Shown here: positions 21,668 through 23,824 of the stretch, one piece after another
Layout: every line of letters begins with the position of its first letter
Numbering within the stretch: position 1 is the first letter of the stretch
NCBI GenBank assembly: GCA_028824125.1
Contig: JAPPES010000094.1
Coordinates: forward strand, 1-64,000
Direction: 5' to 3'
DNA from: Candidatus Poribacteria bacterium
GTDB lineage: Bacteria; Poribacteria; WGA-4E; WGA-3G
DNA: 64,000 nt
Notes under the pieces: model-generated
Database searches by the model: none
Seen by the model: only the letters and a program-made list of their open reading frames with translations
What the model was told of the DNA's origin: nothing
Made by a program: the position numbers and the translations under genes

Positions 21668-21885
21668 CGCGGTGTTTGAGAAATTCCTTTTTTCTTATAA
21701 AAAGGTAGTTCAATCAAAAACACACGACGAAAACTGTTCCTTGAACTCGCACGCCGCGGGTACGACCTCTCCAGCCTATGCACATAAACAGAGACCACTA
21801 ACGAAACTATCTAAACCGCAGAAATCGTATGACAACCAGAGACAACTGTAGTACCAACGTTTATTTAGACCGAAATTCAGCAAAG

Positions 21886-22666
21886 TTAAGAGAAGGTTTG
21901 TCTTTGAAATTCGAGAGGTGTCAGATACCCTAATGCCGAATGTGGGCGTTTGTGGTGATACACCTGTCTGATAAAATGACCAATTCGGATTCTCGCTTCG
22001 TGGATGTCGTGATAGTCATTGAGATGAACTTCTTCCTCCTTCAGTGCTCGGATCAACCTTTCGGCATACCCGTTCTCCCAAGGACACCCTCTGCGAGCTA
22101 TCGAAATCTCAATACCGTGGTGTTTGAGCGTCGAAATATAAGCACTTGAAAGATATTGCACACCTTGATCGGAATGGTGGATCTCTGAAGATCCGCTTTG
22201 CTGTAATGCTTCCTCCAAGGGTTTTAATGTTAGAGATTGCGTCAACTGTTGACTCAGATGCCACGCTCTTATCATACGCGTGAAGACACGTGAAGACATC
22301 CATGAGCAGCGCGACATAGATGAAGTGTCCTTTTAGACGCACATAAGTAATATCGCCGACCCAGACCTGATCGCATTGGGAGACCTCAAGCGTCTGAAGT
22401 CGGTTGACCCAAGGATGTTCCTCGTCAAGCGACTTCGTGGTTTGACAGAGACGTTTCACCGACACTGAGAGATTTTCTTCTTTCATCAACCGGGCAATCC
22501 GTCTATACCCAACGGGGTATCCCGCCTTCACCAACAAGTGCGTGATACGTCTATATCCGTACGTCGGATACGCCACCGCTAACCGCTGTATTTCATCTCG
22601 CAGGACGTCTGCAGACGGGTCGCTTTTGGGTTGATAATAGAAGGTGCTCTTGTTGAAACCCAGCAC
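21886..22666 (-). pseudogene. IS3-family OrfB transposase, frameshifted
   Basis: The N-terminal part (22666 to about 22285) reads FNKSTFYYQP ... YPTYGYRRITHLL ... DQVWVGDITYVRLKGHFIYV. The C-terminal part (about 22290-21886) reads IRAWHLSQQL ... EIHHSDQGVQYLSSAYISTL ... WENGYAERLIRALKEEEVHL ... RPHSALGYLTPLEFQ. They are joined through a direct duplication of TGAAGACA(C/T)(G/C) that adds 10 bp. Confidence 0.88.
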
Positions 22667-22939
22667 CTCGCAAATCTCTCACATGGAATACTCCTTGCGC
22701 AACGCCTCAACTATGTGTCGCCGTTGAGACGGATTCAACTCAACAATGTCGATGCTTTTTTTGAATTTCCAACGCCAGCGTTAACCGCCCTACGAGCTGT
22801 TCAAGTTGCGCAATTCGCTCCGCTGACTCACTTGACTGCTTATCTGTAGATTCAAAGAAGGTTTCGACATTTCAAGAAGTTGACATTTCCATTTCGTTTC
22901 GCCATCGGAATGCTCCTTTTCAAATAGATTGTCATTGTA

Positions 22940-23646
22940 GTAGGGTAGTCGTGTCCCCTCACGGAGACACAACCCCCTCCGAACTATGCGTGCGACTTTC
23001 ACCGCACATAGCTCTCCAGTCGAGTGTGGCGATAAACGCTTTAGGTCATAGACCACTTTTACTTTAGTTCTTATCCATAAGTCAATGACTTCTATAGTCT
23101 GCAAGCTTTCGCACGATTTCAGGTCTATAGATAAAATGTTTTCGGAAATGTTTCAAAGCACTCAACCTGATTATGCTCGCGTCTCTTGACGCTACCTAAT
23201 CTCCGCACCCCTGTGGACTACGGGAGTCCATTTAGGTTCTTTTCAACTCTCTAATAGCAGACTTCACAGATGGATTTAGGATTATCCTTTACCCTGATGC
23301 ATTGGGCATCCCAATGCTGTATTCTCTCAACCTAATTCAGATACCTATTGTGCAGAGGTATCTTTAGAATACCATAGTTTTTCAAGGCGTTATCTATGTC
23401 TATAATAACGAGGAAACCTACGAATATTCAACTTTCGCTTATCCATGTCATATCCATGTCAATCTATTATCGGACGTGCCAATTTTGGACACTCTTATGA
23501 GTTTCGCCTCTGTCCGCAGACATGCGCCATTTCCTCCTGCTTGCCACGTTTCTGTTTCCAGAAACGCAGTTGGAGTAAGATATGCGGTGTTAGGTTCACC
23601 GAGTAGGAATCAAACCTACATTCTACTATTGTCTGTTGAAACGCAC
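22940..23646 (-). ncRNA. ORF-less group II intron (707 nt)
   Basis: The boundaries follow from comparison with uninterrupted IS3 leaders (for example 9150-9180): exon ...CCAAGATTGTGC joins TACAATGACAATCT. The intron starts GTGCGTTTC (GUGYG consensus) at 23646 and ends CCCTAC (AY) at 22940. Domain V is at 22981-23016: a 36-nt stem with the AGC triad, a GAAA loop and a 2-nt CG bulge. Domain VI (22940-22980) is a long hairpin with a bulged A seven nt from the 3' end. No reverse transcriptase or maturase frame fits inside, so splicing or mobility would need a protein in trans. Confidence 0.85.
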
Positions 23647-23824
23647 GCACAATCTTGGTTTAGAGAGTGGTCTAAATTTCCGATGGCAGTACAATCGACA
23701 GGCAAGGTTAAGCGTAATGTTATGGAGATTTTGGACAATTCACTAAAAAATGGGCAGACGAAAACCTGTTTCTGGACATTTCCAAACTTTTTTTACCTTC
23801 GTCTTACCATAATCATCTTTCCTA

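Follow-up and report, generated by a model that had tools for sequence, protein, structure and literature searches.

An ORF-less group II intron in the leader of an IS3-family element points to trans-mobilized homing in Candidatus Poribacteria

Introduction

The group II intron RmInt1 of Sinorhizobium meliloti encodes its own protein. Its natural home is the insertion sequence (IS) ISRm2011-2, and it limits the spread of that element (PMC4238363). The TeI3 introns of Thermosynechococcus elongatus are ORF-less, come from ORF-bearing relatives, were mobilized in trans, and form nested insertions (PMC2882425). In IStrons, a group I intron is combined with an IS (PMC4227781).

The intron described here lies in a 64,000-nucleotide stretch of DNA (the window) from a Candidatus Poribacteria MAG and bears a likeness to each of these systems. 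As for RmInt1, an insertion sequence serves as the natural home of a group II intron, but the window intron is ORF-less, resides in a different IS (IS3 family), and occupies a leader site directly before a probable -10 box. It resembles the TeI3 introns in being ORF-less, in its good EBS/IBS pairing, and in its nested insertions; the TeI3 helper reverse transcriptase (RT) is still encoded in the genome, however, whereas none was found for the window intron, whose domain IV (DIV) shows no remains of an RT. With IStrons it shares the joining of a ribozyme intron to an IS, although the IStron contains a group I intron and depends on the IS for mobility, whereas here a group II intron appears to have homed into IS copies. 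The case unites an RmInt1-like IS home with a TeI3-like spread in trans, in another phylum and with no detectable helper. Poribacteria are sponge-symbiont bacteria, and a literature search turned up no account of ORF-less group II introns from this group. The present locus adds a Poribacteria group of such introns, in which EBS1-IBS1 retargeting has left a clear natural record. It also illustrates how the probable control region of one mobile element can be parasitized repeatedly by a retroelement, and how an intron persists in a genome where an RT search found none.

Results and discussion

The 707-nt insertion is a complete group II intron

The first-pass annotation of the window had described a 707-nt minus-strand insertion, running from GTGCG to CTAC, in the leader of an IS3-family element, with a textbook domain V (DV) and a domain VI (DVI) containing a bulged A at -7. 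The insertion starts with GTGCGTTTC (in longer form, GTGCGTTTCAACAG) and ends with CTACCCTAC, and these ends fit the group II pattern of 5' GUGYG and 3' AY at precise exon junctions. All 77 positions of the DV-DVI model RF00029 were matched by the last 77 nt (67.6 bits, E 3.8e-11 over the window), with the AGC triad, GAAA loop, and 2-nt bulge of DV and the bulged A of DVI in place, and the 5' part of domain I (DI) was recognized by RF02012 at a score just under the cut-off (Table 1). The folding energy of the intron compared with that of shuffled sequence gave z = -6.0. Among 29 copies, 97.1% of the DV-DVI cells were paired, changes on both sides were seen in 18 pairs, and the covariation score was 0.548, compared with values of at most 0.153 for slid controls. 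RNAalifold analysis of seven copies recovered DV, DVI, and several hairpins; a clean canonical DI was not obtained from these seven copies. The insertion is a complete group II intron, and the annotation was correct on its ends, its position, and its terminal domains.

Excision of the intron in silico yielded AAGATTGTGC|TACAATGACAATC, the same sequence as the leader of an intron-less IS at locus L004 in the same contig. That IS belongs to the same family and is nested within a second copy of the intron (G000:C64 136593-138532), which it interrupts. Its AAGATTGTGC-TACAATGACAATC leader represents the empty site, and both introns split this sequence between the C and the T. Neither copy of the window's genome has a break in DV, DVI, EBS1, or either splice site.

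Table 1. Positions of the intron, its structural elements, its host IS, and related introns.
Feature	Position	Strand	Basis
Complete ORF-less group II intron (GTGCG...CCCTAC)	22940..23646	-	RF00029, RF02012, folding, empty site in L004
Domains V and VI, branch-point A at -7	22940..23016	-	RF00029 and covariation in 29 copies
5' part of domain I	23462..23603	-	RF02012 (group-II-D1D4-7), 33.1 bits, just below the gathering score of 34; E 5e-5
EBS1 loop GCACAAT (intron nt 294-300)	23347..23353	-	pairs with IBS1 (ATTGTGC) in the 5' exon
5' exon: IS3 left end (TGTACTGCC...), first half of leader hairpin, terminal ATTGTGC (IBS1)	23647..23694	-	
3' exon: TACAAT (probable -10 box), ACAATCT hairpin arm, Shine-Dalgarno sequence, orfA start codon	22903..22939	-	
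Decayed IS3 body: orfA with internal deletion, orfB with stop and frameshift, right terminal repeat	21847..22902	-	
Introns of the family at IS3 3' ends	L071 2912-2950; L083 2808-2846; L058 and L059, 3' flanks		
Introns in tRNA-Arg genes	L065 2308-5312; L067 2551-5859; L076 2747-5008		

The intron lies directly 5' of a probable promoter element of its host IS

The OrfB of the nested L004 element matched NF033516 with 280.8 bits, and this copy displays the features that define the IS3 family, namely OrfA and OrfB with a DDE transposase, TG...CA ends, and a 3-bp target duplication (a clean CTT). The window copy is degenerate, and a clear target duplication was not seen for it. These results bear out the proposal that an ORF-less group II intron with related copies occupies the leader hairpin of an IS3-family element. 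The hairpin had been called conserved; the insertion does fall within it, but its arms span 7 bp in the window IS (AGATTGT/ACAATCT) and reach 8 bp only in other IS copies.

We collected 29 distinct intron-less leaders, and in each of the 24 that were readable TACAAT or TATAAT is found directly 3' of the insertion point, with TG one base upstream of this TAYAAT in nearly all of them. The loop is more conserved than the leader hairpin alone would require. The TAYAAT and TG resemble, and are probably, an extended -10 promoter of the IS that overlaps the hairpin. Were TAYAAT the -10 box, transcription from the IS's own promoter would begin 3' of the intron, leaving only read-through RNA for splicing to act on. 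The suggestion that splicing hides the insertion from the IS transcript was not supported, given the location of the intron directly 5' of this putative -10 element. In addition, the window IS is broken in both orfA, by deletion, and orfB, so little function is left to protect.

The unbroken ribozyme domains, EBS1, and splice sites of both copies would be accounted for by a fully functional intron that protects IS3 expression by splicing from the IS transcript with a host or outside protein. We consider this very unlikely because the insertion directly 5' of the conserved TAYAAT would leave the IS's own transcript without the 5' exon, the window IS is dead, and no maturase was found. It is also highly improbable that the lineage is specialized for IS3 leaders such that its insertion cuts promoter and hairpin and silences the transposon, splicing restores only read-through, and occupancy regulates the IS3 elements of Poribacteria.

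Neither a maturase frame nor a helper RT was found

The longest stop-free stretches within the intron comprise 71 codons in the sense and 93 codons in the antisense direction, so the intron contains no maturase, in agreement with the first-pass annotation, and it lacks the intron-encoded RT/maturase of an autonomous mobile group II intron. That annotation had also invoked a trans-acting protein. Mobility of the intron must have needed an RT in trans, but no such enzyme was found: searches of this 94%-complete MAG, from whose assembly a helper RT could be missing, found none with RVT_1, GIIM, or the full group II RT. The best trace in this genome of the protein encoded by RT-bearing relatives was a 21-bit match confined to the HNH region. 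No RT remnant was found in DIV, as a tblastn comparison of the introns with the RT returned only noise (best E 0.25). A single-contig chromosome, G037, contained just a partial RT relative with stops, and no strong RT match was present in G029, G032, or G053. A helper RT specific to this intron subfamily was not identified.

EBS1 is matched to the 5' exon at many unrelated sites

The titled records with the conserved intron motif were all Candidatus Poribacteria MAGs, and matching introns were present in 29 of the 146 genomes searched. Genomes G029, G032, G037, G049, and G055 carry near-complete ORF-less copies, and truncated ones are present in further genomes. Other Poribacteria introns carry an ORF for an RT-maturase-HNH protein (RVT_N-RVT_1-GIIM-HNH; TIGR04416 with HNH). 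These RT-bearing relatives (e.g., G035 C1:2172595-2174349) are 68-70% identical to the window intron in parts of DI and ∼90% identical in DV, but they occupy other sites, whereas the window intron is ORF-less and lies in the IS3 leader. The ORF-less lineage probably derives from, or is related to, introns encoding such a protein.

The EBS1 of the window intron pairs with the last seven bases of its 5' exon at 7 of 7 positions. Complementarity between EBS1 and the 5' exon was complete in seven of the eight ORF-less copies and broken by a single mismatch in the remaining one, even as the sequences themselves varied: GCACAAT/ATTGTGC (EBS1/exon) in the window copy and L004, TCACAAT/ATTGTGA in G032, CTGATT/AATCAG in G037, CATTTG/CAAATG in G029, TATAGTT/AACTATA in G049, and CCTCTT/AAGAGG in the second G037 copy. 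When the RT-bearing relatives were included and a local alignment shift of up to 14 nt was allowed, 57 of 60 bases matched across ten sites, compared with a permutation mean of 41.5; a value of 57 was reached once in 100,000 permutations. Two copies are shifted in the alignment, which lowered the score on fixed alignment columns to 37 of 48. For EBS3, whose pairing with IBS3 bears on assignment to subclass IIB or the CL type, a single candidate column fit seven of the eight copies, a level that chance could give. The matching of EBS1 to the exon at many unrelated sites shows that the intron family moves by homing.

Probable separate entry of the intron into diverged IS3 lineages

Six copies are located at the identical point of the IS3 leader, two in the window's genome and one each in G032, G034, G052, and G053 (the last three being 5' fragments), and they form one clade with a bootstrap value of 93. 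A clade of this kind, with members at different genomic sites, would be consistent with a single entry into one IS3 leader followed by spread through IS transposition, in the manner of a group II IStron. We regard that history as quite unlikely. Between the two introns of the window's genome, identity is 97% over nt 1-446; between the IS bodies that carry them it drops to 80.4%, which implies separate entry of the intron into two IS lineages. The L004 IS body shares 94.7% identity with an intron-less IS from another species, and the allele in the L004 5' exon (AATATAAG) is that of the IS lineage to which L004 itself belongs. Furthermore, the leader alleles are discordant with the intron tree, with L004 and G053 having a common allele but falling in different subclades. 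As the sole explanation, transposition of an intron-bearing IS was rejected for both copies of the window's genome by the IS-body divergence. Separate homing events are the simplest reading of this divergence between introns and elements.

Recombination could in principle have carried the intron between IS copies by gene conversion, with no involvement of an RT. Such a process would fit both the failure to find an RT in the window's genome and the mosaic character of the introns, in which modules appear to have been exchanged between copies: DVI of the window intron (22940-22982) is 100% identical to that of G049 and of the second G037 copy, whereas the 5' parts are only 62-70% identical. We nevertheless judge gene conversion unlikely as the means of spread. 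The flanking leader of L004 keeps its own-lineage allele, so a conversion tract would have to stop within ∼14 nt of the 5' junction, and the EBS1-exon matches described above indicate homing of the family.

The explanation that we favor, and consider probable as a whole, is that of a trans-mobilized Poribacteria lineage that homed repeatedly into IS3 leaders and whose copy in the window is now an orphaned relic. An RT-maturase-HNH protein, once available, would have mobilized the ORF-less intron in trans, EBS1-IBS1 pairing would have provided recognition of the IS3 leader, and at least two diverged IS3 lineages of the window's genome would each have received the intron by a homing event of its own. 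With a dead host IS and no RT left in the assembled genome, the intron copy is most likely orphaned. Read-through transcripts may still lose the intron by splicing, and the IS's own promoter region is probably disrupted rather than preserved by the insertion.

Other insertion sites of the intron family

IS3 is a recurrent landing site for this intron family. The 3' ends of IS3 elements hold other introns of the family, in the sense orientation in G021 and G037 and in the antisense orientation in G041 and G054 (Table 1). In the G032 locus (L051 2545-4103), the intron is flanked by the IS3 left end and by the leader as far as the ATG, after which a 253-aa gene takes the place of orfA; the start of its product is signal-peptide-like, and no Pfam match was found. 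The second G037 intron (L053 2806-3640) sits in DI of another intron copy, a twintron-like arrangement, and the ORF-less intron of G049 (L057 2673-4151) harbors a TnpB-type (OrfB_IS605) gene in the opposite orientation, probably in DIV. In three Poribacteria genomes, tRNA-Arg genes are split in the D arm by RT-bearing group II introns, and joining the flanks of L065, L067, and L076 restored intact tRNA-Arg genes (CCT, CCT, and ACG, respectively) according to ARAGORN.
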